Shown here in pieces: positions 7,081 to 24,364 of a stretch of DNA of 33,973 bases (its first letter is position 1; every line of letters begins with the position of its first letter). The translations under genes were made by a program, and so were the position numbers. Source of the DNA: Bacteroidota bacterium (lineage in GTDB: Bacteria; Bacteroidota; Bacteroidia; UBA7662; JAIXUI01); contig JAIXUI010000119.1 of the NCBI GenBank assembly GCA_027484125.1, forward strand, positions 1-33,973. The letters are read 5' to 3'. The notes below the pieces were generated by a model, which did not search any database, had not been told where the DNA came from, and was given only the letters and a program-made list of their open reading frames with translations.

Positions 7081-7088
7081 CAGATTTG
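7081..7088 (+). promoter_or_regulatory. Candidate -7 box for the glycosyltransferase-flippase-asnB operon
   Basis: CAGATTTG, seven of eight to TAnnTTTG, followed by CATCAA and the GTG start at 7095. The same TTTGCATC string follows the boxes of grpE and the DUF4294 gene. A TTG start at 7086 would lie inside the box, which favours GTG. Confidence 0.4.
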
Positions 7089-7094
7089 CATCAA

Positions 7095-8285
7095 GTGAGT
7101 GCTGCAAATTCTTCCTCTTATGTTTTGTTTTTGTCGGCGTGGTATCCCCATCCCGACGATTTCACCTTTGGCATCTTTGTACAACGTCATGCTCGTGACC
7201 TTTCCCGACAAGGCAAAAAAGTAGTTGTGGCTTGGGTGTTTAATGGGGTTGAAGGAGTCAATAAAACGCAATATCAAGTCAGGCAAGAAGGGTTGTTGCA
7301 TGAACACTTGGTGTTTTATCCAAAGAATTCGCAACCAAGCCTGCTAGGACAAGCACTTCGAACTTTTGATTATTTGCATCATTATAGTTCGCTCATTCAA
7401 CAAGTTATTCAGGTGCATGGAAAGCCGGAACATGTGATGGTGAATGTAGCCATGCGTGCCGGATTGTTGGCTTTATGGCTGAAATACACCCGAGGAATCC
7501 CATTTTCACTGATTGAACATTGGTCTGGTTATTTACCGGAAGATGGTCGTTATCAAGGAAAATGGATGAAGAAGGCTACTGAAAGAATTTTTCGAGAGGC
7601 GGAATCTGTTATCACTATTTCTCAGCAAATGCGCGATAACATGGTGAATCGACATGGGCTAGAAATGAAAAGGCACTTCATTTTACCCAATTCAGTGGAC
7701 GATACAATTTTTTCATATAAGCCTGAATATCAGAATTATAGTGATTTATACTTCTATCATATTTCTAACTTTGTTAGGGAAAAGCAAGTGCCTGAATTGG
7801 TGGCGGTCTTTGAACAATGTTGGTCCGAAGGACTAGCACACCGATTGATATTAAGTGGCGACGGCCCGGAGGCGGAACTAGTGAGAAAGAAGTTTGCACA
7901 CCGTATTGAATCTGGTCAATTGGTGTTTACCGGAAGGTTAACACCTGAGCAAGTGGCCGAATACATGCAAAAGGCTGTTGCTTTGGTACTATTTAGCTTG
8001 TTTGAAGGGCTTCCTTGTGTCATGTTAGAAGCTTGGTGCACCGGATTGCCGGTAATTGCCACTGCAGTTGGCGGAATTCCAGAGGTTTTGTCCCCGGAAC
8101 TAGGCGTTTTGCTGTCTTCCGGAGATGCTCAAGGTTTGTATGAGGTGATACAAAAAATCAGCAAACAAGCAATTAGCTTCAACCGTCTGCTGATTCATGA
8201 ATTAGCAGTTGGCCAATACGCTTCGTCTGCTGTTGGGCAACAATTAGTTCGTATCCTTGAATCAATCAATGCCCCGCATCCTTAG
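7095..8285 (+). CDS. Glycosyltransferase family 4 (GT-B fold)
   Basis: About 396 residues. The N-terminal half is a Rossmann-like acceptor domain starting FLSAWYPHPDDFTFGIFVQRHARDL, typical of GT4 enzymes. The C-terminal donor-binding domain has LSGDGPEAELV, then the E-x7-E element in FEGLPCVMLEAWCTGLPVIAT and AVGGIPEVL. It would transfer a sugar from a nucleotide-sugar donor to a lipid-linked or surface glycan on the cytoplasmic face of the inner membrane. There is no ATG before the conserved region. TTG at 7086 or GTG at 7095 must be used; I prefer GTG because TTG falls in the promoter box. It overlaps the flippase gene by 17 nt. Sugar specificity cannot be read. Confidence 0.92.
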   Translation: MSAANSSSYVLFLSAWYPHPDDFTFGIFVQRHARDLSRQGKKVVVAWVFNGVEGVNKTQYQVRQEGLLHEHLVFYPKNSQPSLLGQALRTFDYLHHYSSLIQQVIQVHGKPEHVMVNVAMRAGLLALWLKYTRGIPFSLIEHWSGYLPEDGRYQGKWMKKATERIFREAESVITISQQMRDNMVNRHGLEMKRHFILPNSVDDTIFSYKPEYQNYSDLYFYHISNFVREKQVPELVAVFEQCWSEGLAHRLILSGDGPEAELVRKKFAHRIESGQLVFTGRLTPEQVAEYMQKAVALVLFSLFEGLPCVMLEAWCTGLPVIATAVGGIPEVLSPELGVLLSSGDAQGLYEVIQKISKQAISFNRLLIHELAVGQYASSAVGQQLVRILESINAPHP

Positions 8286-9516
8286 TATTTTACTTAGCCG
8301 GTTTGGCCTATTTGCCTCCAACGGCTTGATGATTTTGCTTACAGCTCGTTGGCTTGGCGCTAGCGGAAGGGGAGAGGTCAGTCTTTTTCTTGCAACAGTT
8401 TCTATCAGCGGACTTATAGCCCAGGTTTCGTCTGGTATCGCTTTGGTGTATTGGATGCCGAAGTATGGGCATCATCGGGTGTTTAAGCTTGGACTAGGCG
8501 TTCAATTAGCCACTTCGTTGTTGTTAGGGCTGATAATGGGTCCTTGGTATGGCGCATTAGGTTTACTTCATCACCTCACGCACTTGTTTCGGTATTTTTT
8601 GTTGGCTTTCAACCGAATGGAGGAAGATGCAGCCGTCAACGTTTTGCAAGGAATCAGTCAACTTTTGCTGTTTGCTGCCATTTATTTGTACTCAAACTTA
8701 ACCGGATGGCTTCATTTTGCTTTGTCGTTTGGTATTTCTTATTGCTTGAGCCTAACGCTTAGTGTGATTCTTTATATAAAAGCAGTAAAAAGTCGAGATC
8801 GAGCGCTACCCGAAATGGACTGGAAATCCATCCGGAAATATTTAGGACATGGAATGGAAGTTCAAGGTGGAAATTTGCTTTATCTAAGCATGACTCGCTG
8901 GTTGTTTTTCAGGTTGGAACAAGTGGGCAATCTGGCTACCACCGGGGTGTTTTCTGTAGCCATTGCAGCAGTTGAAGCCTTGTTACTCGCTGCTTCTTCT
9001 TTGGCTGCTGTACTTATGAATCAAGTGGCGCATCATAATCAGGAACATCAGATGAAGGAACAAACCACTTTTATAGCTAAAATATCGCTGTTGATTACAT
9101 CGATGGCTTTGTTGTTGGTGGTGCTGGTACCCGGAGACTGGTGGGCTCAAGTGTTAGGGGAAGCCTATCGGCCATTAGGTGGTTTGCTCAGGATTTTGAG
9201 TCCGGGAATTGCACTGATGTCATTGGCCACCGTTATACTTCACGCTTATTCAGGAATGGGAAGATATCGGGTGAACTTAACAGTAGTATTGGTAGCTTTA
9301 GTTGTGAGTTTAATGCTTAGTTCGTGGCTCATGGACAAGCAGAGTGGTTTGGTAGGTGCCGCTTTGGTAGCCTCTTTCGCTTATTCAATTCTTTCTATCC
9401 TTACCATTGCTTGGTTCAATAGGCAATATCGGATGTCGTGGAGAGTTTGGATTCCTAACTCCCAAACGTTTTTAACCTTGCTACAATATGTGCGGAATAG
9501 GCGGCTTTTTTCTTAA
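8269..9516 (+). CDS. Wzx/MATE-like polysaccharide flippase (lipopolysaccharide biosynthesis protein)
   Basis: 415 residues, nearly all hydrophobic, with about 12 membrane helices. It begins MPRILSILLSRFGLFASNGL and includes RWLGASGRGEVSLFLATVS near residue 28. This LG..G.G.... segment is typical of Wzx-type proteins of the MOP superfamily, which move undecaprenyl-linked oligosaccharides across the inner membrane. I chose the ATG at 8269; an upstream TTG is unlikely. The start overlaps the glycosyltransferase end by 17 nt and its end overlaps asnB by 29 nt, so the three genes form a translationally coupled cassette. No polymerase (Wzy) or initiating transferase is in the window, so the pathway must be completed elsewhere. 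Confidence 0.88.
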   Translation: MPRILSILLSRFGLFASNGLMILLTARWLGASGRGEVSLFLATVSISGLIAQVSSGIALVYWMPKYGHHRVFKLGLGVQLATSLLLGLIMGPWYGALGLLHHLTHLFRYFLLAFNRMEEDAAVNVLQGISQLLLFAAIYLYSNLTGWLHFALSFGISYCLSLTLSVILYIKAVKSRDRALPEMDWKSIRKYLGHGMEVQGGNLLYLSMTRWLFFRLEQVGNLATTGVFSVAIAAVEALLLAASSLAAVLMNQVAHHNQEHQMKEQTTFIAKISLLITSMALLLVVLVPGDWWAQVLGEAYRPLGGLLRILSPGIALMSLATVILHAYSGMGRYRVNLTVVLVALVVSLMLSSWLMDKQSGLVGAALVASFAYSILSILTIAWFNRQYRMSWRVWIPNSQTFLTLLQYVRNRRLFS

Positions 9517-11326
9517 AAACACCCCATCACGGCCTGTTCCGGAGGTGTTGCAAACATTCAGTCAGGCGATGAAGCACCGAGGCCCTGATGATGAGGGTTT
9601 CGTACTTTACAATGCAGACTATGAACCTCGCCAATTTGGAAGTTTGGACACTCACCCAGACTGGTTTGAACTATCCGCACAGCATCGCCCAATTTCAGAA
9701 GCACTGATGAGTTCATGGATTGGAGGTCTGGTTCACAGAAGGCTTTCCATTATGGATTTGTCGGTATTGGCTCATCAGCCTTATCCAAGTAGTCGTCATT
9801 CCTGGCTAACTTTCAATGGAGAAATTTACAACTACCCATCGTTGCTTCCGGATTTTCATCCCAACTCAGATTCAGATACTGCAGTATTGGTAGAGTTTCT
9901 TGAGAGGGGTGGATTGCAGAAGCTTTCCAAACTCGATGGAATGTTTGCATTGGCTTGGCTTTCGCCTACTTCTATGCAACTTACCTTAGTGAGAGATAGG
10001 ATGGGAGTGAAGCCGCTGTATTATTTAGACACCCCTGATTTTTTTGCATTTGCTTCAGAACCCACGACTCTTCATTGTTTGCTTCAACAAAATCCTAATC
10101 CTAATCTATCACTCCTTGCAGAATATTTAACCCGCGGAATTGTAGCGTATGAAGGCCCCGGTTTCTGGGAGCCAGTTAAAGAATTACTGCCGGGTTATCA
10201 GCTGTGTTACAGCCTAAAGGATGGATATTTTGAGTTGAAAAAATGGTTCAACGCATCACTTCTGGAAGTTTTTCCACCGGTAGAAGCCAGGAGAAGGTTA
10301 AAAGATACCCTCAACCAAAGTGTAAGTTTGAGGCTTAGAAGTGATGTGCCGGTTGGATGCAGTTTGTCGGGAGGATTAGATTCTGGTTTGGTTACAGCCT
10401 TGGCTAAAAAACATTTGCCCAACCAAAACATATTGGCATTTACAGCTACATGGCCAGGCCAACCGGAAAATGAAGCCAGATTGGCGAAAATAGCCGCTGA
10501 TTTTATTGGTGTGAAATGGGTTGAAGTGCCCTTAGAGACTCAAAAGCTGGAAGAATATTGGTCTGAAGTAACTCGTTTTCAGGGATTTCCATTAATTCAC
10601 ACCAGCACAATAGCGCAAGGAAAGGTCATGGAAACAGCTTCTGCTTATGGGATAAAAGTTATGCTGGATGGTCAAGGAGGAGATGAGTTGTTTGCGGGCT
10701 ATTCCCATCATGCTAAAGTTTATAATCAATCTTTTAAGTATTTGATTATGAGTTTATTAGAAGATTTTATTCTTCAATTAAGTTCATCTTATCGCTTTTA
10801 TCGACATCCTTTGAGTCAATGTTGGAAAGGTAATTTGCCTCCAGGACTCCCCATTTCCACGTACCGGCATGAGCGTTCATTGAAGGAGCTGTTACAACAT
10901 GAGGCTTATGGACAGTCTTTGAAAAACCTGTTTCGTTGGGCTGACCGCAGTGGAATGGCCTATGGCATAGAGAGTAGGTTTCCACTAGCCGATAGTATTC
11001 AATTGCAGGAAGTGGCATTTAGTCTGGCTGCCAGTGATTTAATTGACCATGGATGGTCGAAGTTGGCATTAAGGAGAATGGCACAAGGAGTATTACCGGA
11101 TGAGGTGGTTTGGAATCAAGCAAAGTCGGCTTATGGAAGTCCACAGCACCATTGGGTGAAAAACAATTATCCGCAATGGCTGAGCGAATTACATCCTCAA
11201 ATGTCTGACATACTGGATGTTGCTAAATTAAAAATACTTGCTTCCAAGATGATTTCTTCCGGAAAATCAGATGGACTGTTTAGAGTGAAAGCGCTCTCTG
11301 AATGGATGAAACAGTTTGTTTCCTGA
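9488..11326 (+). CDS. asnB: Asparagine synthase (glutamine-hydrolysing), AsnB type
   Basis: 612 residues with both AsnB domains. The class II glutaminase domain starts MCGIGGF, so Cys2 becomes the N-terminal nucleophile after Met removal, and has KHRGPDDEG and FNGEIYNY. The synthetase domain has the ATP-pyrophosphatase loop SGGLDSG at about 294-300, and GQGGDELFAGY. Classical AsnB makes asparagine from aspartate. Homologues in polysaccharide loci amidate sugar carboxylates such as uronic acids. Because this gene overlaps a flippase and sits behind a glycosyltransferase, the second role is plausible but is an inference. All key motifs are present, so it should be active. Confidence 0.93.
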   Translation: MCGIGGFFLKNTPSRPVPEVLQTFSQAMKHRGPDDEGFVLYNADYEPRQFGSLDTHPDWFELSAQHRPISEALMSSWIGGLVHRRLSIMDLSVLAHQPYPSSRHSWLTFNGEIYNYPSLLPDFHPNSDSDTAVLVEFLERGGLQKLSKLDGMFALAWLSPTSMQLTLVRDRMGVKPLYYLDTPDFFAFASEPTTLHCLLQQNPNPNLSLLAEYLTRGIVAYEGPGFWEPVKELLPGYQLCYSLKDGYFELKKWFNASLLEVFPPVEARRRLKDTLNQSVSLRLRSDVPVGCSLSGGLDSGLVTALAKKHLPNQNILAFTATWPGQPENEARLAKIAADFIGVKWVEVPLETQKLEEYWSEVTRFQGFPLIHTSTIAQGKVMETASAYGIKVMLDGQGGDELFAGYSHHAKVYNQSFKYLIMSLLEDFILQLSSSYRFYRHPLSQCWKGNLPPGLPISTYRHERSLKELLQHEAYGQSLKNLFRWADRSGMAYGIESRFPLADSIQLQEVAFSLAASDLIDHGWSKLALRRMAQGVLPDEVVWNQAKSAYGSPQHHWVKNNYPQWLSELHPQMSDILDVAKLKILASKMISSGKSDGLFRVKALSEWMKQFVS

Positions 11327-11386
11327 GGTGACTAAATTTTATCTCTTGGGAAACCTATAAAAATAAGAATAGCTCATGATAACCTA

Positions 11387-11394
11387 TTAATTTG
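11387..11394 (+). promoter_or_regulatory. Candidate -7 box for siaB-siaC
   Basis: TTAATTTG, seven of eight to TAnnTTTG, in the 88-nt gap after asnB and 20 nt before the siaB ATG. No -33 box is visible. It would let siaBC be transcribed independently of the polysaccharide cassette. Confidence 0.3.
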
Positions 11395-11414
11395 CGAATG
11401 TAAGGCCATTGACC

Positions 11415-11966
11415 ATGAAGATAAAAGCCTATGATTTATATGCTTTGATGGAAGGACACGATGTGTTGTTATCCTTCAAAGGCGAAATCACCTCTGAGCT
11501 GATGACTTCTATCTTTCAGATAGTAGAAAACAAGCTCAATGAGATTGATGAAGACCCAAAGATTAAGAAGAAGGTTTATAACATCATGGTAGAGTGCCTT
11601 CAAAACTTGTATCATCACATGGCCGATGCAGATCCTGACCAAACATTAGTAAAGCTAAACAAAGGCCAGGCTCTGTTTCTCATTGCAAAGCAAGGCGAGC
11701 ATTTCTTTATTTCTACAGGGAATTACATTAGAAATGAGGATGTTACCACCCTTAATGAGAAATTGGAGCGTATCAAAAGCATGAGCAAAGAGGAATTGAG
11801 GGAATATTACCGCGAAATCCTCCACAATGAGGAGCTCTCTGCCAAAGGCGGAGGAGGACTCGGAATTATTGACATTGCCAGAAAGTCTGAGCAAAAAATT
11901 AATTACGATTTCAAGGAAATAGATAATAATTTCTCCTTTTTTAGCCTCGAAGTTACCATTGGCTAA
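11415..11966 (+). CDS. siaB: SiaB-family protein kinase (DUF6272)
   Basis: 183 residues with a GHKL/HATPase-like layout: an N-box helix NIMVECLQN (Glu60 and Asn64) and a glycine-rich G-box KGGGGLGIIDIAR (about 144-156). This is the SiaB family, whose Pseudomonas member phosphorylates the partner protein SiaC. The ATG at 11415 is chosen over a TTG two codons upstream. The next gene, siaC, follows after 12 nt, so kinase and substrate are a pair. The opposing phosphatase (SiaA role) is probably the SpoIIE protein at 16283-18664. The family call is strong; kinase activity towards the neighbour is inferred from the family. Confidence 0.87.
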   Translation: MKIKAYDLYALMEGHDVLLSFKGEITSELMTSIFQIVENKLNEIDEDPKIKKKVYNIMVECLQNLYHHMADADPDQTLVKLNKGQALFLIAKQGEHFFISTGNYIRNEDVTTLNEKLERIKSMSKEELREYYREILHNEELSAKGGGGLGIIDIARKSEQKINYDFKEIDNNFSFFSLEVTIG

Positions 11967-11978
11967 TCTTTAAAATTC

Positions 11979-12356
11979 ATGAACACCTTTCTTCTCGAAG
12001 CCACCGCCAAAACACCCTTGGTCTCCTTGGATGCAGCCTCCGGAATTCTCAGGCTTGAAGGCAAGTCGATACCTGAAAACTCTGTAGAATTTTATAGACC
12101 CATCTTGGAATGGTTGGATCAATATGCCGGCAGTCCGGCCTCAGAAACCATTCTTGAACTAAGCTTAGAATATTTTAATACATCCAGCTCTAAATGCTTG
12201 CTGGACGTTTTCAGGAAATTAGAAATGCTTAACTCGTCGGGCAATGTTGCTATCCGTTGGTATTATGACGAAGAAGACGAGGATATGAAAGAAGTGGGCG
12301 AAGATTATCAAGCCCTCCTTAAGGTGCCTATTTCATTAATTGCATTGGAAAACTAA
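11979..12356 (+). CDS. siaC: SiaC-family regulatory phosphoprotein (DUF1987)
   Basis: 125 residues, cytoplasmic. Family hallmarks are the N-terminal TP.V.LD...G.L...G.S.PEN...FY.PI..WL pattern and the phospho-site loop LEYFNTSSSKCLLD, where Thr68 aligns with the threonine phosphorylated by SiaB in Pseudomonas. In that organism unphosphorylated SiaC binds and activates the diguanylate cyclase SiaD. No SiaD-like gene is in this window, so the target here is unknown. The acidic tail segment DEEDEDMKEVGED is unremarkable for the family. It lies 12 nt after siaB and ends 10 nt before the stop of the facing ABC transporter. Confidence 0.88.
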   Translation: MNTFLLEATAKTPLVSLDAASGILRLEGKSIPENSVEFYRPILEWLDQYAGSPASETILELSLEYFNTSSSKCLLDVFRKLEMLNSSGNVAIRWYYDEEDEDMKEVGEDYQALLKVPISLIALEN

Positions 12357-12366
12357 TCTGTTTGAG

Positions 12367-15342
12367 TTAGTTCTTCTTCTTGCTTAAAACGTGTCCTAAA
12401 CGGGCTGGTAAATCCAGCAATAGCGACAAGAATAGCAAGGTGCTCATCAGCCAAATGATTAATAAGTTGAAAGCATAAGTGCTGAATATCGCCGAACCGA
12501 TTCGTTTATCTACCACCAAAAAAGAAGCATTCAAAGCGTTTTGTTGAAAAGGATCGATGTAAGCACGGTCCTTCAACCTTATTAATTCACCTTCTTCAAA
12601 GATCAGAGGCGTTAAAGAGAATGTCATCATTTCTTGAAGTTTTTGATTGACTTGCTCTTTTCGTAATTGCCCCAATGCTTCTGAACCGCCTAACTTAACC
12701 GATAAAGTGTTGATTTTTTCGTCTTTTAACTTTAATTGTTGTTGGTAGAGTTTCCGGTATTTTGTTCCTACTTGATCCAAAATGGCGGTCCTATAAGTGG
12801 GTTGATTCTTCAGTTTTTCCGTATCAATTGGTAATCCTAAAGCCAAAGCTTCTTGCGTTAAGGTGCGAATAGCCAAAAGTTGTTCTTCGGGATTTTTACT
12901 ATTCGCTAATTCTTCCACTTTAGGCAGCCAAGCGCTCTTTTTATAACCAGCTTCCGCAAGCAATCTTTGGATAGGAAAAAGCGATTGCTCATAGTCATTT
13001 TCCCTGAATTGATGCGTTATCAAGGCTTCGAATGACCATCTGCTAACCATCATATCTCCTACAACAGGAACGGCTGACTTGCCTGAAAACGAGGGGTTTA
13101 ACTCATCGAAGCGAATAATTGCACCACTCAGTATCATTTGCGGAATGATGAGGAATGGAATCATTATATAAACGGTAACTGCAGACTTCAACCCTGCTGA
13201 CAGATTGAGTCCGATTAAGTTGGCAACTACTGCCGTGCTGAACATGACCCACCAGCTGCTGAGGTAACTTCCTGGAATTTCAAGGATAGCATGTGAGATC
13301 AATACAAAGAGCCCTGTTTGAAAGGCTGATATACCTGCTAAAATGCCTAGTTTGGAAAAGAGGTAAGCAGGTTGGCTTAAATGCAGGAACCGTTCACGCT
13401 TCAGGATTTTACGGTCTTTTAGAATTTCTTCAGCGCTCACCATCAGCCCCATGAAAAACGCCACTAAAACACTTACGAAGAAGAATGCGGGAATATTGGT
13501 GTTAGTACCAAAATGATAGTCTTCTCCGGAAGGCTGATAACGAAACAATCCTGCAAGAAGGAGGGCTAACAATGGTGCTTCGAGTACGTTCAGCCAGATA
13601 TAAGGCTTGTTTTGCCATTTTGAATATACATCTCTAAGGCTAAAAACGGACCACTGACCAAACCAGTTCGGAGCATGAAATTGATTTTTCCAGTTATGGT
13701 TTAGCTGTTGTGTTTTTAATGTTTCTTGCTTTTGTTGATCCTGAAAGAAATCATGCCATTCGGCCGGTGAGATACGTCTTGTGGGGGTTTCTCTTCCATA
13801 TTCATCGACCACTTTGTTTTCAATGATGTTGAAAATCTGTTCCGGATTGACATGCCCACAGTGCAGACAAGCACTTTCAGTGGCATTTACATGGTTAACA
13901 ATCGTTTTAAAATAAACCAATGCATCAACCGGATTGCCGTCATAAATGAGGAAGCCTCCTTGGTCGAGAATGAGGAGTCTGTCGAAGAGTTTGAAGATTT
14001 CTGATGAAGGCTGATGAATGACCACAAAGACGAGCTTACCACGAAGAGCCACTTCCTTCAACAAATCCATAATCATCTCAGAATCTCTGGAGGAAAGTCC
14101 GGAAGTGGGTTCATCAACAAATAGAACAGGAGGTTCGCGCAGCAATTCCAAGCCAATGTTGAGACGTTTACGTTGGCCTCCACTCAAGGTTTTATCTAGT
14201 GGATTTCCTACTTTCAGTTTGCGTACTTCCCAGAGTCCAATGGCTTGAAGAAGTTCTTCTATGCGTGTTTTCAGCTCTTGCTCGGTAAGTTGGCTCAAGC
14301 ACAACTTACCGTTGTAATAAAGATTGTCGAAGACGCTGAGGTCTTCTAACAGCAAATCGTCTTGAGATACATAGCCAATGACCCCTTTCATGGCTGGATT
14401 ATCAGCATGAAGGTTGATGCCGTTAATCAAAACTTGACCATTATCAGGTTTTTGGGTGCCATTAAGGATGCTAAGCAGGGTTGATTTTCCGGCCCCACTT
14501 CCCCCCATAATGGCCACCATTCTGCCTGATTCTTCCGCAAAGGAGAGCGGATGTATGGCTTGTTTGCCTCCAGGAAAAACAAGGGATAAATCGTTGACTT
14601 CGAATTGAAGTTTAGACGAATCCTCGTTAGCTAAGAAGGTGGATTGAAGATCCGAGAAATACAAGGTGCCAATTCGCGGACCTCTCAAAGCTGCTCCGGA
14701 ACTAAGAAAATAAACTTTAGATCTGGAGGTTAATTGACCATTGAGGAAGATTTCACTTCCGCACTGGTGTCGCATCAAAAGCACACCATGCGCTTTTTGC
14801 CAGCAGAAGTGGAGTTCACCATCCACAGGAATTGGAAGAATTTTGGCTTCCTTGAATTCCGGTGGTGGTGAAGAAGTAACCAGAAGTAAGCGAGGGGAGT
14901 CTTTTACTGCCTTAAACTCTGAGGTAACAAAATGAAAGAGCTCGTCGAAATCGTCTTGGCTAAAGTTGAAGGTGTCGCCAACCGTTTTTACAAAGTCTAA
15001 TTCTTCATGGAGTATCTCAAAGTCAGAATGAATAAACTCCAGCAGCCGAACCAATACCACAAGCTTTTGGCTTTGATTGAGTTCGGCATTGATTTGGGTG
15101 CAGATGCGAAGGATTTTGACTGAGCTAACAGAAAGCCTTTTTTCTGATCTGGAAGATTTAGCGGAACTGAGAATTTCCTCGAGATACTGATCGAAAAGCC
15201 GGAGGTAACTAACCACCTGCTCTTGGTTGAGCTGTAACCGAAGGAAACTGCGCACTATATCACGCCCGGACGCAGAAATGCCCTGAACGCTAGCTACTAT
15301 AGCAAATAGCTGCATCAGGGCACGTAGTATGCTTTCGCTCAC
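12367..15342 (-). CDS. ABC transporter, fused ATPase and permease (ABCG/ABC-2-like), with N-terminal helical domain
   Basis: 991 residues. An N-terminal helical region (1-150) looks like a TerB-type domain. A beta-rich linker (about 155-240) follows, then the ATPase: Walker A GGSGAGKSTLL (280-290), Q-loop YVSQDD (324-329), signature LSGGQRKR (386-393), Walker B VLFVDEPTSG (406-415) and H-loop (443). A CLHCGH pair (492-497) sits between ATPase and membrane part. The ABC-2 membrane domain covers about 575-770, and a last helix lies near the C-terminus, after a long soluble insert with coiled-coil character. ABCG-like half-transporters normally dimerise and export lipids or hydrophobic compounds; the substrate is unknown. 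The start is GTG at 15342; an ATG at 15315 is possible. It follows the lipoprotein gene by 34 nt. Confidence 0.88.
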   Translation of the reverse strand: MSESILRALMQLFAIVASVQGISASGRDIVRSFLRLQLNQEQVVSYLRLFDQYLEEILSSAKSSRSEKRLSVSSVKILRICTQINAELNQSQKLVVLVRLLEFIHSDFEILHEELDFVKTVGDTFNFSQDDFDELFHFVTSEFKAVKDSPRLLLVTSSPPPEFKEAKILPIPVDGELHFCWQKAHGVLLMRHQCGSEIFLNGQLTSRSKVYFLSSGAALRGPRIGTLYFSDLQSTFLANEDSSKLQFEVNDLSLVFPGGKQAIHPLSFAEESGRMVAIMGGSGAGKSTLLSILNGTQKPDNGQVLINGINLHADNPAMKGVIGYVSQDDLLLEDLSVFDNLYYNGKLCLSQLTEQELKTRIEELLQAIGLWEVRKLKVGNPLDKTLSGGQRKRLNIGLELLREPPVLFVDEPTSGLSSRDSEMIMDLLKEVALRGKLVFVVIHQPSSEIFKLFDRLLILDQGGFLIYDGNPVDALVYFKTIVNHVNATESACLHCGHVNPEQIFNIIENKVVDEYGRETPTRRISPAEWHDFFQDQQKQETLKTQQLNHNWKNQFHAPNWFGQWSVFSLRDVYSKWQNKPYIWLNVLEAPLLALLLAGLFRYQPSGEDYHFGTNTNIPAFFFVSVLVAFFMGLMVSAEEILKDRKILKRERFLHLSQPAYLFSKLGILAGISAFQTGLFVLISHAILEIPGSYLSSWWVMFSTAVVANLIGLNLSAGLKSAVTVYIMIPFLIIPQMILSGAIIRFDELNPSFSGKSAVPVVGDMMVSRWSFEALITHQFRENDYEQSLFPIQRLLAEAGYKKSAWLPKVEELANSKNPEEQLLAIRTLTQEALALGLPIDTEKLKNQPTYRTAILDQVGTKYRKLYQQQLKLKDEKINTLSVKLGGSEALGQLRKEQVNQKLQEMMTFSLTPLIFEEGELIRLKDRAYIDPFQQNALNASFLVVDKRIGSAIFSTYAFNLLIIWLMSTLLFLSLLLDLPARLGHVLSKKKN

Positions 15343-15376
15343 GTTTCCGTAGAGTTAGGCGAGATTGAGTGGTAAA

Positions 15377-16207
15377 TTATTTCACAACTACCTTCCGAGC
15401 GCTCTCAAGAACACTTGCAAGGTTTGCTAATGCTTTGTTATCCAGCATGGTACTGTCTTTTACCTCAGCCATTGCAGCGTTAATGTCTTGCAGGGCTTTG
15501 GTTACTTCAGCAAACTCTGGCTTGTCTTTCATGCCTTCGAGCAGCTTGAGGATGTTTTCAAGTTCTAGGCGAGACTCGTATATCTTATTAAACAGGAAGT
15601 CTGTTTTGGCGTTACGAGGCAGGTTTTTTAGAGTTTGAGTAGCCAGGTATTGGCTTTCTACATAAGTACCTATTGCAACGAAAGTTGCGGTTTCGAGTCT
15701 AGAGTTGTTGGTCAAATACTTAGAAGTTTCTGTAAAAATCTCATTAGTAATATGACGCATAGAATCTTTATTGTCTATCACCGAATTGATGTACTCAGCA
15801 GTAAATTTTTCGAAACCTTGAGCAGCATCCAGTTCGGTGGCCAATTGGCGAACAGCTTCCATGTAAGGGCCTGCTTCTGCACCTTTTTCGAAGGCAGAGA
15901 GGGCGATTAAATCGAATCCATAGACTCCAAAATTCAATCCTTTTTGAGCACTTGTGGTATAATTGGCTGCGTTTGCTGGATTGTTTAGCATGTTTTTGTC
16001 CAGCTTGATACCTGCTTCTTTCATGGCATCTACCAGCGCGTAGGGTGCCGGAATGTCTGCTAAAATTTTCCAGAAGCGATAATCATCAACCTCGTTAATG
16101 GTGTCTGCAGCGGCTGCTGCATCGGTGGTGCTTTTCTCATTGTTACCGCAAGAGAAAAGTCCGAATGCCATGACCAGAAGCACTGGCACAAAAGAGAGTT
16201 TTTTCAT
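15377..16207 (-). CDS. Predicted lipoprotein of unknown function
   Basis: 276 residues. A lipoprotein signal peptide (MKKLSFVPVLLVMAFGLFSC) has its lipobox cysteine at 20, followed by GNN and an alanine-rich linker. The mature part is almost entirely helical and contains three to four long amphipathic helices, with no catalytic motif I recognise. Its N-terminal segment DIPAPYALVDAMKEAGIKLD and the following NYTTSAQKGLNFGVYGFDL suggest a conserved Bacteroidota family. The ATG at 16207 is used; an upstream TTG adds seven residues before the signal. It lies between the SpoIIE phosphatase and the ABC transporter, all on the minus strand, so it may be exported by, or work with, either. No function assigned. 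Confidence 0.85.
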   Translation of the reverse strand: MKKLSFVPVLLVMAFGLFSCGNNEKSTTDAAAAADTINEVDDYRFWKILADIPAPYALVDAMKEAGIKLDKNMLNNPANAANYTTSAQKGLNFGVYGFDLIALSAFEKGAEAGPYMEAVRQLATELDAAQGFEKFTAEYINSVIDNKDSMRHITNEIFTETSKYLTNNSRLETATFVAIGTYVESQYLATQTLKNLPRNAKTDFLFNKIYESRLELENILKLLEGMKDKPEFAEVTKALQDINAAMAEVKDSTMLDNKALANLASVLESARKVVVK

Positions 16208-16235
16208 ATTGTGGACGATTTTTTTCAATTAGTTA

Positions 16236-16243
16236 CAAAGATG
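16236..16243 (-). promoter_or_regulatory. Candidate -7 box for lipoprotein-ABC transporter
   Basis: Minus-strand CATCTTTG, seven of eight to TAnnTTTG, 28 nt before the lipoprotein ATG. The -33 region is not convincing. Confidence 0.3.
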
Positions 16244-16282
16244 TAAGAGTTGTTTAAATTCTCACTACTACTTTAAAATCTC

Positions 16283-18664
16283 TCAAGGAATTCTTAGTCC
16301 CATTACGCATACATCATCAATTTGCTCATGGTTTCCTCTCCATTCTTCAAATCTTTCTTCTAAAAGCAATATTTGCTTATCCATCGGCAGTTGTGCCATG
16401 CCAAGGAGCATGTTTTTAAAATTCTTTAGCATCAGTTTTTTTCCCATGCTTCCGCCAAATTGATCTGCATAACCATCTGAAAATAAGTAAATAACATCTC
16501 CCTGATTCAGTGTTAAGGTTACTTCAGAAAAGTGGATTTTTCTGTCTAGATGATCACCTCCAATTGATTTTTTGGTTCCCTTAATTTCATTTAATTCGGC
16601 CTCTTGCTGAATATTTTGAATGAGGTAAAGGGGGCGCATGGCTCCTGCATAGGTCAAAGTTCTTGATTGTGGTTCAAATACGGCAATTGCAGCATCCATA
16701 CCATCTTGAGTGCCTAAACCATGAAGGTTCTGTTTTAAGGTTTCATGAATCCACCGATTCATTTCAGCGAGAATTTCAGCAGGTGAATTGATTTCTCTTT
16801 CTACTACAATCTGATTGAGCATCATGGAGCCAATCATGCTCATCAATGCGCCAGGAACGCCATGTCCGGTACAATCGATAACGGCAAACAGCACTTTGTC
16901 TTCAAACTGGTGTACGAAGTAGAAATCGCCACTCACTACCTCTTTAGGTTTCAGCAAACAGTCGCAATCGGGAATGGTTAACCTCAGCTTTTCTAATGAT
17001 GGCAATATGGCCGATTGAATTCTGCTGGCGTATTGCAAACTTTCTTTAACCTCCTGATTCTTAATAGATATAATTCTGTTTTGTTCAACTACTTCTGCGG
17101 TTCGATGAGCAACTTGCGTCTCTAATTCAGACTTTTGGTCTGCTAAAATTTGTTGCTTCTCTTGTTCTTTTTCAAGGTTCTGCCTTGAAAGCTCTTTCAC
17201 ATTTTCTATCTGTTTGATTAAACCTTGGTTGGTTTTCGAGAAATCATAAGCCAAATAGATTGTCACCGAAAGCGGAAGGCTCATAATGGCCAAAGCAATA
17301 AAAGTGAAAAAGCCGATAAGCAAGATCACCACTCCAGCTTCTTCAGCACTGCTACTTGCCCAAAATGCCCCGAAGACTAACCATATAAATCCAAGGAAAA
17401 AGAAAACAGTTGAACCCAGCACTCCGGCACCTACGTATCGTGCACCTTCTTGTTTTCTATTTAATGCTTTAAGCGACAATCGGAAGGAGTCTATGTAAAC
17501 CAGTAAGGCAAGTATTCCTGTTAGGCTACTCTGATAGTCATTTTCAAATATGATCAGCAGCGTAACTAGGATTGAGATAAGCACTTGAAATAGATAAAAC
17601 TTGCTTTTCATGTCTTTAAAAAGCACATACAGCAAGGAGATTAGTGTGATTAAATAAACTGGAAGAATGAAGTCTGAATAAAAGTGGATTTTATCGGATA
17701 TATCGGGATTGTGAATGTTGAAATAAACAACAGGTAAAAGAAAGATTAAGGCCATGGAGCCCACAAAAAAGCTGTAGAATAAATTGAAGGTCTTAGATCT
17801 TTCAAACAGATAAATAAGCAAGTGAACGAGAAACAAAGCAGCGAAGAAACCAAACAAGGCTACCGGAAACCCCATTACAAATTTTGTATAGGTGGTATAA
17901 CTTGCCACTGATTCGTTCATTTCATCTATGCTGATTTTGAATCCTTCTTGAATGGTACTATGATCAGAGTACCTGATGGATAACACATGAAGCCCGGTAT
18001 CCATCAAGCTAAATGGAACCGGTAACTCATGAGGGTTATGCCTAATTTCTTCGGAAGCCTTGCTGCTTACTTTTCCATACTCAACAATTTTTTTACCGTC
18101 CAGATAAATTTCACTTGCTCCGCTTTGCCGAACTTCAAGTGCAAGTGGTTTTCCAATGAGTGCTTCCGGGATTTTGATATGAGTCCTAAACCAGCCTATT
18201 GGATTTTTTGCATATATCTCTTTAAAGTATCCTTGTCTGAAAAGCCATTTTTTCTCAAATGCAATCAACTGAGGATCCTTTTTTCGTTTTCTTTTGGGTT
18301 TGCTATCCTCTTCTTCATCATTAATCTCTGAATCATTGGAGTTGATGGGTTTAGCTACCGGGATATTTTGGGCTGCAAATTCTGCGAATGTGCTCCAATG
18401 TTGATCCGAATAAGCGCTATTCTTCCATTGAATGCTATCTCCAGGTTTAAATCTCCAAAACTTGTTGATGGAAACGGAAGTGCTGCTTAACGAGAATTTG
18501 ATGCCAAAATCAGTTGATTTCTTTTTAGAAACTTTGTCAATAACCAGGTCATGCAGACTATGATAAACAATGGTGTCCGGACTTAACTGGGTAGTTGCCT
18601 TGGCGATGAATACGAAAAAGCACAACAGTAGGGTAAAAAGAAGCCGATAAGAGTGATTAGGCAT
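16283..18664 (-). CDS. Membrane sensor PP2C phosphatase: DISM extracellular domain, 7TM region and SpoIIE domain (SiaA-like role)
   Basis: 793 residues. Parts in order: signal peptide (1-25); periplasmic jelly-roll-type sensor domain (26-255); seven or so membrane helices (260-485) of the 7TMR-DISM type; coiled coil (490-560) with QEKQQILADQKSELETQ; and a SpoIIE/PP2C serine-threonine phosphatase domain (565-793). Metal-binding aspartates are all in place: Asp580 (GDFY), Asp597 (DCTGHG), Asp730 (FSDGY) and Asp783/784. It should dephosphorylate a regulatory protein in response to an envelope signal. The nearest candidate is SiaC at 11979. A 25-residue acidic-then-basic insert (107-131) interrupts the sensor domain. 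The phosphatase call is firm; the partner is inferred. Confidence 0.9.
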   Translation of the reverse strand: MPNHSYRLLFTLLLCFFVFIAKATTQLSPDTIVYHSLHDLVIDKVSKKKSTDFGIKFSLSSTSVSINKFWRFKPGDSIQWKNSAYSDQHWSTFAEFAAQNIPVAKPINSNDSEINDEEEDSKPKRKRKKDPQLIAFEKKWLFRQGYFKEIYAKNPIGWFRTHIKIPEALIGKPLALEVRQSGASEIYLDGKKIVEYGKVSSKASEEIRHNPHELPVPFSLMDTGLHVLSIRYSDHSTIQEGFKISIDEMNESVASYTTYTKFVMGFPVALFGFFAALFLVHLLIYLFERSKTFNLFYSFFVGSMALIFLLPVVYFNIHNPDISDKIHFYSDFILPVYLITLISLLYVLFKDMKSKFYLFQVLISILVTLLIIFENDYQSSLTGILALLVYIDSFRLSLKALNRKQEGARYVGAGVLGSTVFFFLGFIWLVFGAFWASSSAEEAGVVILLIGFFTFIALAIMSLPLSVTIYLAYDFSKTNQGLIKQIENVKELSRQNLEKEQEKQQILADQKSELETQVAHRTAEVVEQNRIISIKNQEVKESLQYASRIQSAILPSLEKLRLTIPDCDCLLKPKEVVSGDFYFVHQFEDKVLFAVIDCTGHGVPGALMSMIGSMMLNQIVVEREINSPAEILAEMNRWIHETLKQNLHGLGTQDGMDAAIAVFEPQSRTLTYAGAMRPLYLIQNIQQEAELNEIKGTKKSIGGDHLDRKIHFSEVTLTLNQGDVIYLFSDGYADQFGGSMGKKLMLKNFKNMLLGMAQLPMDKQILLLEERFEEWRGNHEQIDDVCVMGLRIP

Positions 18665-20774: not shown

Positions 20775-21695
20775 TTAAATGATCGAGAATCTGGCTGATG
20801 AATCAAAGCCAACCGGCCTAGTTTGTGTAAGCTGATAAAAAAGGTCAAAAACAATACCTTCCTTTAATCCCATACCAGTAACGGCAATCTTTCTGATTTC
20901 GGTTACTTCCATGACATGCAGGTATATTTCTAATGCAGGAATGATTACATCAGCGCGGTCTGGATTTAGTCCGAGAACCTGTACTCTTTCCTTTAAACTA
21001 TATCGTTGAAGGTAATTGTAAAGCTCTTTCAGATTTTTGTATGAGGCTGTTTTACCGTTTTTGATTTTTAGTAGGTCAAATGCTTTATTGATGTTACCGC
21101 CCGAACCTAAAATGAGGCTGGGAATGCGTGGTTTGATGGTTGTTTTAAGCCAATGGGTAAGCTCTTTCCAAACGCCATCATCATCTTGATTGTCTAAAAT
21201 TCTAACTGTTCCTAAGTTAAAAGAGCGGGAGGCGATTTTTTCTTTACCGCTCAGTAAACTAATTTCTGTACTTCCGCCACCCACATCTACAAACAAGCTG
21301 TTTTGGTGCATATCTAAGAGATTCATCTGTGCCCGCCAAATGAGATCGGCTTCTTCCTGACCTGAGATAATTTCAATACTTATTCCTGTTTCTTTTTCTA
21401 TGGCCTTGACTATTTCTGGACCATTTTCAGCTTCTCTGAGGGCTGAAGTTGCACAAGCTCTGAATTTTTCAGTACGAAACAATTTCATGAGTAAGGCGAA
21501 AGACTTCATCATATCCATGAGGTCAGAAGCTTTTTTCTCAGGAATTGACTTATTGATAAATACATAGTCACCCAATCGCAAGGGGACTCGGATAAATTCA
21601 ATCACTTTATGTTTAGGAAATCCTTGCTCCATGTGCATGCTACAGATGTAAAGCCTGGCAGCATTGGAGCCTATATCAATGGCAGCTAGTATCAT
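20775..21695 (-). CDS. ppx: Ppx/GppA-family exopolyphosphatase
   Basis: 306 residues with an ASKHA (actin-like ATPase) fold. Motifs in order: AIDIGSNAARL (5-15), ATSALREA, ISGQEEADLI, FVDVGGGSTEISLL (the phosphate-binding glycine loop), SGGN, and DRADVI with a late MGLKEG. The family removes terminal phosphates from polyphosphate or hydrolyses pppGpp. This is the short form without a C-terminal HD domain. Its ATG overlaps the ppk1 stop by 4 nt (ATGA), so it is translationally coupled to the synthase. That pairing supports polyphosphate as substrate. Confidence 0.92.
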   Translation of the reverse strand: MILAAIDIGSNAARLYICSMHMEQGFPKHKVIEFIRVPLRLGDYVFINKSIPEKKASDLMDMMKSFALLMKLFRTEKFRACATSALREAENGPEIVKAIEKETGISIEIISGQEEADLIWRAQMNLLDMHQNSLFVDVGGGSTEISLLSGKEKIASRSFNLGTVRILDNQDDDGVWKELTHWLKTTIKPRIPSLILGSGGNINKAFDLLKIKNGKTASYKNLKELYNYLQRYSLKERVQVLGLNPDRADVIIPALEIYLHVMEVTEIRKIAVTGMGLKEGIVFDLFYQLTQTRPVGFDSSARFSII

Positions 21696-23848
21696 GATTC
21701 TTGGATTTCCTGCTTTTTAATGGCTTTTTTCTTCACCTTTATAGAAGGTTGGCTGACATTTAGCAAGTCGCTTATTTGCCACTGTGACCGAACTACCATG
21801 TTGTGTTCTTCTGGCAATACTCTTTCGTTTTTGAGTGTAGCATCAATAATTCGTGCCCTACAGTTATCCGACCATTGAAGGTCAAAAATTTGGATCAAGT
21901 TTTTTCGAATGTTTTTATCGTAGATTGGGAAAGCGATTTCAACTCGGTTTGAGAGGTTTCGATTCATCCAATCTGCCGAGGAAAGAAACACTTTTTCACG
22001 TCCATTTTCTCCATTAGCGAATATGTATAACCTACCATGTTCCAGAAAACGGTCGATGATGGAGATTACACGGATATTTTCGGACATCTGCTTAACTCCC
22101 GGAACCAAACTGCACATACCTCGTACAATAAGTTCAATTTTGACCCCTGCACGACTGGCTTCATAAAGCAGTTCTATCATGCCTTCATCCACCAAGCTAT
22201 TCATTTTCAGTTTCATCCATGCAGACTTACCTGCTTTAGCATTGGCTATTTCTTTTTGAATAAGTTGAACAAAACCTTCTCTTAAGTGGTTGGGAGCAAC
22301 CAACAAATGTTCATACTCATAGTTGCGGGCGCTGTTTTCAAGCCATCTGAAAAGCTTATCGGCGTCCTTAATCAGGCGATTATCATGGGTAAACAAACCA
22401 AAATCAGAATAAATACGCGCTGATTGGCCATTGTAATTGCCAGTTGAGAAATGGGCATATTGAACTATTCTTCCTTTTTCATTGCGGCTTATCAAACACA
22501 TTTTGCAATGCACTTTCAGGTTGTGGAATCCATAAATGACTTTCACCCCTGCTTCGTCCAGTTTTTCTGCCCAATACATATTGGTCTCTTCATCGAATCG
22601 CGCTTTCAACTCAATGATAGCAGTAACTTTTTTGCCATTCATAGCAGCAGTTACTAGGCTATTGGCTACTTGAGAGAGCCTCGCAATGCGGTACAAAGTG
22701 ATTTTTATCTCTGTAACTGTTGGGTCAATAGCGGCTTCTCTAAGAAATCGGAGCACATAATCGAAGCTTTGATAGGGATGATGCACCATTACATCCTGGG
22801 TTCGAATAGCATCGAACATGCTTACGTAATGATCGAGCAGCTGGTGCGGAAGCTGTTCTAAACCAGGATATTTTAACTCGGAATTTCCCGTATCCGGGAA
22901 GTTCATGAAATCCGAAAAGTTATGATATCGGCCTCCCGGAATGATGTTGGCTTTTTCTAATTTAAACTTGCGGATGATAAGATTCAACAAGTCAGTCGGA
23001 ATGCGAGCATCGTGTATAAATCGAACAGGTTCCCCTTTTTTTCTGGCTTTCAAGCTTTTATTTAGCTTATCCAGTACCGACTCGTAAATATCATTGTCCA
23101 CATCGAGTTCTTGATTTCTAGTAAGTTTGATGGTAAATGATTCGAGCGTATCGTAGCTAAAGACTCCGAAAAGGTAGTTGAGGTTGAACCGAACTACATC
23201 GTCTAAAAGGATGATGTCATGGGTGTTTCCCGATTGGGTGTTTAATTGAAAAAAGCGAGGGATAAATTTGGTCGGTAATTCTACTAAGCCATAACCCGCT
23301 TCTTTCCCTTTCGAATGATTATACATTTTCACCGCCAGATAGATGTACCGGTCTTTCAAGTGAGGCGTCACAGAAGTTCCGGTCAGCATAATAGGGGTGG
23401 TGTATGGAAGAATTTGCTGCTTGAAAATGAGCCTTACTTCTTCTTGCTGGGCAGTACTCAGTTCTTTTTCATTGACTAACCTGATGCCGTTTTCGCTTAA
23501 AGCAGGAAGAATGGCTTGTTCAAAGAGCCTTTCAAATCTGTTTTGCTGCCTAATTACAACATCCTGAATAAGTTGAAGAATAAGCTCAGGATTAAAGTTG
23601 AGTTTTTCCCGGTCCACCTTCGATAAAGAATTAAGCTTTCGAAGAGAAGGAACACGAATTCTGAAGAACTCGTCGAGGTTGGAGGAAAAGATAGCTAGGA
23701 ATTTAATGCGTTCTAATAAAGGAACGTCATCAGCGGCCGCTTCCTGAAGGACACGGTCATTGAAAGCGAGCCAGCTAATTTCGCGGTTGAGGAGCTCGAA
23801 TTTTTCTCCTTTCCGTTTGGTTTTGAAAATATAATCGCCTGAAGGCAT
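21692..23848 (-). CDS. ppk1: Polyphosphate kinase 1
   Basis: 718 residues, full length. PPK1 reversibly builds polyphosphate chains from ATP. It shows the N-terminal helical domain (LLNREISWLAFNDRVLQEA), the head domain, and two phospholipase-D-like catalytic halves. The first has the histidine in YAHFSTGNYN (about residue 465, the autophosphorylated one). The second has FLEHGRLYIFANG (about 604) and SSADWMNRNLSNRVE. It sits between sixA (9-nt gap upstream) and ppx (4-nt overlap downstream), forming a sixA-ppk1-ppx operon. The C-terminal tail is lysine-rich. Confidence 0.98.
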   Translation of the reverse strand: MPSGDYIFKTKRKGEKFELLNREISWLAFNDRVLQEAAADDVPLLERIKFLAIFSSNLDEFFRIRVPSLRKLNSLSKVDREKLNFNPELILQLIQDVVIRQQNRFERLFEQAILPALSENGIRLVNEKELSTAQQEEVRLIFKQQILPYTTPIMLTGTSVTPHLKDRYIYLAVKMYNHSKGKEAGYGLVELPTKFIPRFFQLNTQSGNTHDIILLDDVVRFNLNYLFGVFSYDTLESFTIKLTRNQELDVDNDIYESVLDKLNKSLKARKKGEPVRFIHDARIPTDLLNLIIRKFKLEKANIIPGGRYHNFSDFMNFPDTGNSELKYPGLEQLPHQLLDHYVSMFDAIRTQDVMVHHPYQSFDYVLRFLREAAIDPTVTEIKITLYRIARLSQVANSLVTAAMNGKKVTAIIELKARFDEETNMYWAEKLDEAGVKVIYGFHNLKVHCKMCLISRNEKGRIVQYAHFSTGNYNGQSARIYSDFGLFTHDNRLIKDADKLFRWLENSARNYEYEHLLVAPNHLREGFVQLIQKEIANAKAGKSAWMKLKMNSLVDEGMIELLYEASRAGVKIELIVRGMCSLVPGVKQMSENIRVISIIDRFLEHGRLYIFANGENGREKVFLSSADWMNRNLSNRVEIAFPIYDKNIRKNLIQIFDLQWSDNCRARIIDATLKNERVLPEEHNMVVRSQWQISDLLNVSQPSIKVKKKAIKKQEIQES

Positions 23849-23857
23849 GCTATTGAT

Positions 23858-24364
23858 TTAGAGAAAAGAGTTCTCCACTTTGGGGAAGTCATGCCAGATC
23901 AACTCCGCATTTGAACTTGATATTTCTTCCCATTTTGTAACGTCGAATCCAATTTCCATTAGGCCACAAGTAGGTAAATTATCTAGTTGCAAGGCTTCAA
24001 TGAGGAAATTAACTACCTGAGTCATGGTTGGATTATGGCCAATGATGAGCAAGCTGTCCAGTTCGTCATTGGTGGCTTTGATGTTTTGAATGATGGTGCG
24101 ATAGTCGGCTTGGTAAATCCAGCTGGCTTCTTCTGCTAATTCAATGGAAATTCCGGCTGTCGCAAACAAAAAGAAACAGGTTTGCTGTGTTCTAAGAGCG
24201 TGTGAAACCCATGCAACATCTAAATGGATGTTCCGTCCTTTTAGTTTAAATCCTAACTTTTGAGCTTGTTGTTTTCCGGCCTCGGTGAGCGGCCGGTCCA
24301 CATCTTCTCCGGTAGCCGATTCAAAGGCAGCTTTGGCATGGCGGAGAATCAATAGCTTCTTCAT
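23858..24364 (-). CDS. sixA: Phosphohistidine phosphatase SixA-like (histidine phosphatase superfamily)
   Basis: 168 residues. Starts MKKLLILRHAKA with the catalytic LRHA motif (His9), followed by DRPLTEAGKQQAQKLG, and has the second active-site histidine in LLIIGHNPTMTQ. These are the marks of the SixA branch, short enzymes that remove phosphate from phosphohistidine on signalling or PTS proteins. The start is certain from the conserved N-terminus. It is the first gene of the polyphosphate operon and has a perfect -7 box 8 nt upstream. PPK1 works through a phosphohistidine, so a functional link is possible but unproven. Confidence 0.92.
   Translation of the reverse strand: MKKLLILRHAKAAFESATGEDVDRPLTEAGKQQAQKLGFKLKGRNIHLDVAWVSHALRTQQTCFFLFATAGISIELAEEASWIYQADYRTIIQNIKATNDELDSLLIIGHNPTMTQVVNFLIEALQLDNLPTCGLMEIGFDVTKWEEISSSNAELIWHDFPKVENSFL

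Follow-up and report, generated by a model that had tools for sequence, protein, structure and literature searches.

The SiaA-SiaB-SiaC switch of Pseudomonas aeruginosa turns on the diguanylate cyclase SiaD (PMC7647112, PMC8457831). The locus described here raises the question of what such a switch controls where SiaD is missing. It lies in the window, a stretch of 33,973 nucleotides that forms a complete contig of a 3.33 Mb Bacteroidota genome (99.69% complete; 167 contigs). A sequence-only reading of the locus had proposed that SiaC may act on a target other than SiaD, one tied to surface export. The genes concerned are the following.

7086..11326, plus strand: glycosyltransferase, putative flippase, and asparagine synthase genes, outside the conserved unit
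11415..11966, plus strand: siaB, SiaB-family serine/threonine kinase by family match, with the predicted catalytic Glu and GxGLG motif kept
11979..12356, plus strand: siaC, SiaC-family phosphoprotein with Thr68, by family match and PDB alignment
12367..15342, minus strand: ABCG-like exporter whose cytoplasmic N-terminus comprises a TerB-like domain (residues 1-141) and, by prediction, an FHA-like fold (residues ~147-240)
15377..16207, minus strand: lipoprotein (lipobox LFSC), conserved neighbor of the exporter, predicted to be all-helical
16283..18664, minus strand: SiaA-type SpoIIE/PP2C phosphatase, preceded in the chain by an extracytoplasmic domain and a membrane part resembling 7TM-DISM

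siaB and siaC are plus-strand neighbors. On the minus strand, the SpoIIE gene comes first and is followed in the same direction by the lipoprotein and exporter genes, with gaps of ~75 and 34 nt. This run converges on siaBC, leaving the exporter stop 10 nt from the siaC stop, and the two groups in the window are hence not one transcript. Promoter and terminator scans of the siaBC/exporter region scored no better than shuffles. Elsewhere in the window (20775-24364), three consecutive minus-strand proteins read, from their translations, as exopolyphosphatase-like, polyphosphate kinase, and SixA-like phosphatase.

The siaB product matches PF19788 (E 7e-44) and the NCBIfam family SiaB_fam_kinase (NF038262; 171.6 bits against a cut-off of 85), and its alignment to 6kko_A places the catalytic Glu and GxG motif of SiaB kinases. 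The siaC product matches PF09345 (E 1e-40) and the PDB SiaC entries 6kko/6k4f (E 7e-18); its FNTSS threonine is residue 68, in register with P. aeruginosa SiaC. These matches bear out the siaB-siaC pair with Thr68 that had been recognized from the letters of the DNA.

The SpoIIE protein matches PF07228 (E 8e-22), its sole PDB match is the SiaA PP2C domain 6k4e (E 2e-40), and the metal-site aspartate motifs SGDF, IDCTGHG, SDG, and DD are all kept. Residues 508-792 match NCBIfam SiaA (E 1.6e-62, 212 bits); the equivalog cut-off of 700 bits is set for the whole protein, and the window protein falls under it because the match spans the catalytic half only. The membrane half gives a weak, sub-threshold match to 7TMR-DISM_7TM (25.7 bits versus a cut-off of 29). 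The earlier description as a DISM-SpoIIE phosphatase is thus sound for SpoIIE, with a SiaA-type catalytic half, and weak for its DISM part. Judged by sequence, the window genes fit a SiaABC partner switch with a SiaA-type PP2C phosphatase, a SiaB kinase, and SiaC Thr68, and as in P. aeruginosa SiaABCD (PMC7647112, PMC8457831) the catalytic residues are retained along with the N67-T68-S69 patch; the phosphatase has a different sensor half. In the window's organism, SiaB would phosphorylate SiaC and the SpoIIE protein would dephosphorylate it.

The SiaD output of SiaABCD appears absent from this genome. A search for GGDEF gave 0 matches in the 99.7% complete genome, window included, while 8/14 control genomes matched. 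The reported lack of a GGDEF gene therefore extends to the whole 3.33 Mb, with no SiaD-like GGDEF cyclase elsewhere, and a GGDEF enzyme is excluded as the SiaC target in this genome; what SiaC acts on must differ from a SiaD-type enzyme, as had been proposed. The genome encodes a single copy each of SiaB, SiaC, the TerB-ABCG exporter, and the SiaA-type phosphatase, all within 7.3 kb. It has three SpoIIE proteins, and only the window copy matches SiaA in NCBIfam; the other two, considered as better phosphatase partners, were set aside for want of that match.

The exporter carries PF00005 and then PF01061 (ABC_tran and ABC2_membrane) in one chain, a TerB domain at the N-terminus by family search, and PDB matches to ABCG1 and ABCG2, confirming the ABCG-like exporter of the sequence-only reading. 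The adjoining lipoprotein was also correctly read in that its lipobox is present; it has no family match, and a search for its function by fold gave no match above common background. It accompanies the exporter in most regions fetched by exporter, and may be its direct partner. In relatives, a protein of ~140 residues usually lies between the two, and it is missing in the window.

The first 250 residues of the exporter were modeled from 16 relatives (pLDDT 85). In the model, residues 1-141 match TerB-like structures (2h5n, Z 9.6; 2ou3, Z 7.9), and FHA domains make up most of the fold matches for residues ~147-240 (VIA, Z 6-7; Foldseek, E 0.02 or weaker), values that are middling by the tool's scale. 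By sequence, PF00498 was listed for 0/16 exporter members at E up to 1, a profile search of PDB sequences came back empty, and FHA-family matches were absent from ten genomes. The exporter alignment likewise contains no GR...SxxH signature. Because there is neither an FHA sequence match nor this signature, residues ~147-240 are predicted from the model to be an FHA-like fold at most, with putative phosphothreonine binding.

A conserved neighborhood of siaC and this ABC gene in relatives, the check set beforehand for the export proposal, was found in many families. siaB-siaC converges on the exporter in ~59/80 SiaC loci fetched by sequence (mostly Bacteroidales, Marinilabiliaceae). Of 39 regions fetched by exporter, with most families represented once, 14 have siaC no more than 2 kb from the exporter and 25 do not. 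The linkage occurs in three orders: convergent, which is commonest; co-directional, as SpoIIE-siaB-siaC-ABC in one direction in loci L129, L131, L132, L219, and L240; and siaC-lipoprotein-ABC, in L207. Several related loci hold apparent gene fusions: 290-354-residue proteins adjoining siaC match both SiaC and SiaB (L040, L049, L052, L094, L100; probable SiaB-SiaC fusions), and single open frames at L121:7719-9440 and L133:10162-12039 match a SiaA-type phosphatase plus SiaB (probable phosphatase-kinase fusions).

This neighborhood could be ancestral synteny, in which siaBC and the exporter have been neighbors since the class ancestor and SiaC acts elsewhere, for instance on an unlinked histidine kinase or transcription regulator. 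On a quick tree of 58 exporters, where the window exporter is a long branch of unsure placement, the convergent label needs 9 changes; this commonest order is scattered over the tree, the pattern expected of an ancestral state that was lost repeatedly, and SiaC is multi-copy in many relatives. The co-directional label needs 3 changes, at least 2 of them forced by supported branches, and against mere inheritance the linkage survives rearrangement of gene order and strand at two or more points of the tree (f9/f81 and f62). The genes on the other side of siaB have also turned over: the gene upstream of siaB belongs to at least five unrelated homology groups by lineage, whereas the exporter side is constant. 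The glycosyltransferase-flippase-AsnB cassette, which had been tied to the switch, is not conserved beside siaBC and was rejected as part of the unit, with an AsnB homolog nearby in one related locus only (L062). Of its proposed identities, the glycosyltransferase and AsnB hold and the flippase is without a Pfam match.

Co-occurrence also bears on this alternative. Among 396 genomes of the window organism's class, with the exporter N-terminus scored at E up to 1e-6, the exporter is present in 190 and SiaC in 193; 179 have both, 11 the exporter alone, 14 SiaC alone, and 192 neither (odds ratio 223, without phylogenetic correction). By family, among the genomes listed, 42 have both, 2 only the exporter, and 4 only SiaC; the 15 genomes listed from the window organism's order have neither SiaC nor the exporter. 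The presence and absence of SiaC and the exporter thus go together even when their genes are not adjacent, which argues against inherited synteny as the explanation and leaves it rather unlikely. In many genomes of the class, SiaC is present several times (up to 10 matches) alongside 1-3 exporters, and a part of these copies may therefore act on something else. The family is greatly expanded in G394, G433, G486, G555, G580, G606, and G655, class genomes that each have ten SiaC matches.

The surface of SiaC that meets SiaD is altered in this group. In 7E6G, the SiaC residues that touch SiaD include D29, Y31, D79, R103, L107, and D114 (PMC8457831). These are replaced in exporter-linked SiaC, some with charge reversed: these copies mostly have R at 29, I at 31, K at 79, D at 103, and I at 114, and window SiaC has K at 29, I at 31, R at 79, D at 103, and L at 114. 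Y65, N67, and T68 are kept among exporter-linked copies, and S69 is mostly kept. The same pattern is found in copies not beside an exporter and in two genomes in which no exporter was detected, and the altered surface was therefore rejected as a marker of exporter-linked copies only. At the level of sequence, the changed periphery speaks against SiaD-like binding; it is not specific support for the exporter because the pattern is class-wide.

The gene that follows siaC varies in other families of the phylum. There, SpoIIE-siaB-siaC can be followed by GGDEF in the same slot (L114), and GGDEF adjoins siaC in genomes G125, G268, and G307. These cases (L114:5590-11023, G125, G268, G307) represent a run resembling SiaABCD, with the order SpoIIE-siaB-siaC-GGDEF, from beyond the Proteobacteria, in a different class of the window organism's phylum. 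Elsewhere SpoIIE-siaB-siaC leads into a histidine kinase (L142:9565-10608) or, with a small gene between, an AAA protein (L121:10087-13869), and a histidine kinase also comes after siaC at L115:2022-3065. It has been suggested that modulation of neighboring proteins is a general role of the SiaC family (PMC8457831).

In one relative from another family, SpoIIE-siaB-siaC is followed by a class III nucleotide cyclase (L143:10294-11364), as would suit a SiaC that acts through a nucleotide second messenger from a non-GGDEF enzyme, with the exporter as a bystander. The surroundings of siaBC in the window yielded no cyclase and the linked gene in the class is the exporter, making this reading very improbable. 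The direction of control could also be the reverse, the activity or cargo of the exporter being the signal for the SpoIIE phosphatase and SiaC, so that the switch reports on export and does not control it. The co-directional SpoIIE, lipoprotein, and exporter genes with short gaps in the window would suit this arrangement, as would the extracytoplasmic part of the SpoIIE protein. However, the slot is taken in other families by output enzymes (GGDEF or class III cyclase), and the exporter has a cytoplasmic module of its own; a purely reporting switch is accordingly improbable.

The locus is probably a SiaABC partner switch that has an ABC exporter as its output in place of the diguanylate cyclase SiaD, with the phosphorylation state of SiaC gating the exporter. 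For this reading speak the gene content, the genome singletons, the catalytic and phospho-site residues, the absence of GGDEF, the co-occurrence, and the conserved linkage; against it, the convergent order may simply have been inherited from long ago and lost many times (9 changes on the 58-exporter tree). Also weighing against it are the 25/39 exporter-fetched regions with siaC more than 2 kb away, the class-wide spread of the altered SiaC surface, and the multiple SiaC copies of many class genomes. In the proposed mechanism, an extracytoplasmic signal would set the SiaA-type SpoIIE phosphatase, which would oppose SiaB kinase at SiaC Thr68. One form of SiaC, the unphosphorylated one by analogy with SiaD, would dock on the TerB/FHA-like module at the cytoplasmic N-terminus of the exporter and switch the export activity of this ABCG-type protein, with the lipoprotein as its presumed envelope partner. 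We infer from linkage and co-occurrence that SiaC acts on the exporter; the direct contact between the two, the sign of its effect, and the cargo belong to the proposal. A tentative stronger form, with a somewhat less than even chance, is that the threonine-phosphorylation switch gates the ABCG-type exporter directly through SiaC bound to its TerB/FHA-like module, and that the SiaC family supplies interchangeable adaptors, with a cyclase, a kinase, or a transporter as the possible output.

By functional analogy, the closest counterpart is Rv1747-PknF of Mycobacterium tuberculosis, where one operon encodes an ABC exporter bearing FHA domains and the cognate Ser/Thr kinase by which it is modulated (PMC3908365, PMC5549992). 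Both loci encode an ABC exporter with a cytoplasmic FHA or predicted FHA-like module together with a Ser/Thr kinase. Unlike Rv1747, which has two recognized FHA domains, the window exporter has an FHA-like part seen by fold comparison only, after a TerB-like domain, and its kinase is SiaB, with a phosphoprotein in between. In HsbA-HsbD and BgrV-BgrR, as cited in PMC8457831, a STAS-like partner-switch protein also acts on a partner enzyme, but the output there is a diguanylate cyclase. Compared with P. aeruginosa SiaABCD, the window lacks SiaD, the linked gene is an ABC exporter with a lipoprotein, and the SiaD-contact periphery of SiaC is changed. In the open-licence literature, no published link between SiaABC and an exporter was found, the only SiaC (DUF1987) target found is the SiaD diguanylate cyclase, and no description of the exporter or its cargo in the phylum Bacteroidota was found. 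A SiaABC partner switch with an exporter in place of SiaD would, by that literature, be a previously undescribed variant.

SiaC (DUF1987) proteins are widespread. GGDEF occurs in 8/396 genomes of the class, and nearly all of its SiaC-bearing genomes are without diguanylate cyclases; SiaC must therefore have another role there. The linked exporter offers a concrete, testable target for SiaC, and if the proposal is true, threonine-phosphorylation signaling would be joined to transporter control in this phylum. That the switch travels with a membrane exporter and no c-di-GMP enzyme in a large group of Bacteroidota suggests that it controls what the cell exports.
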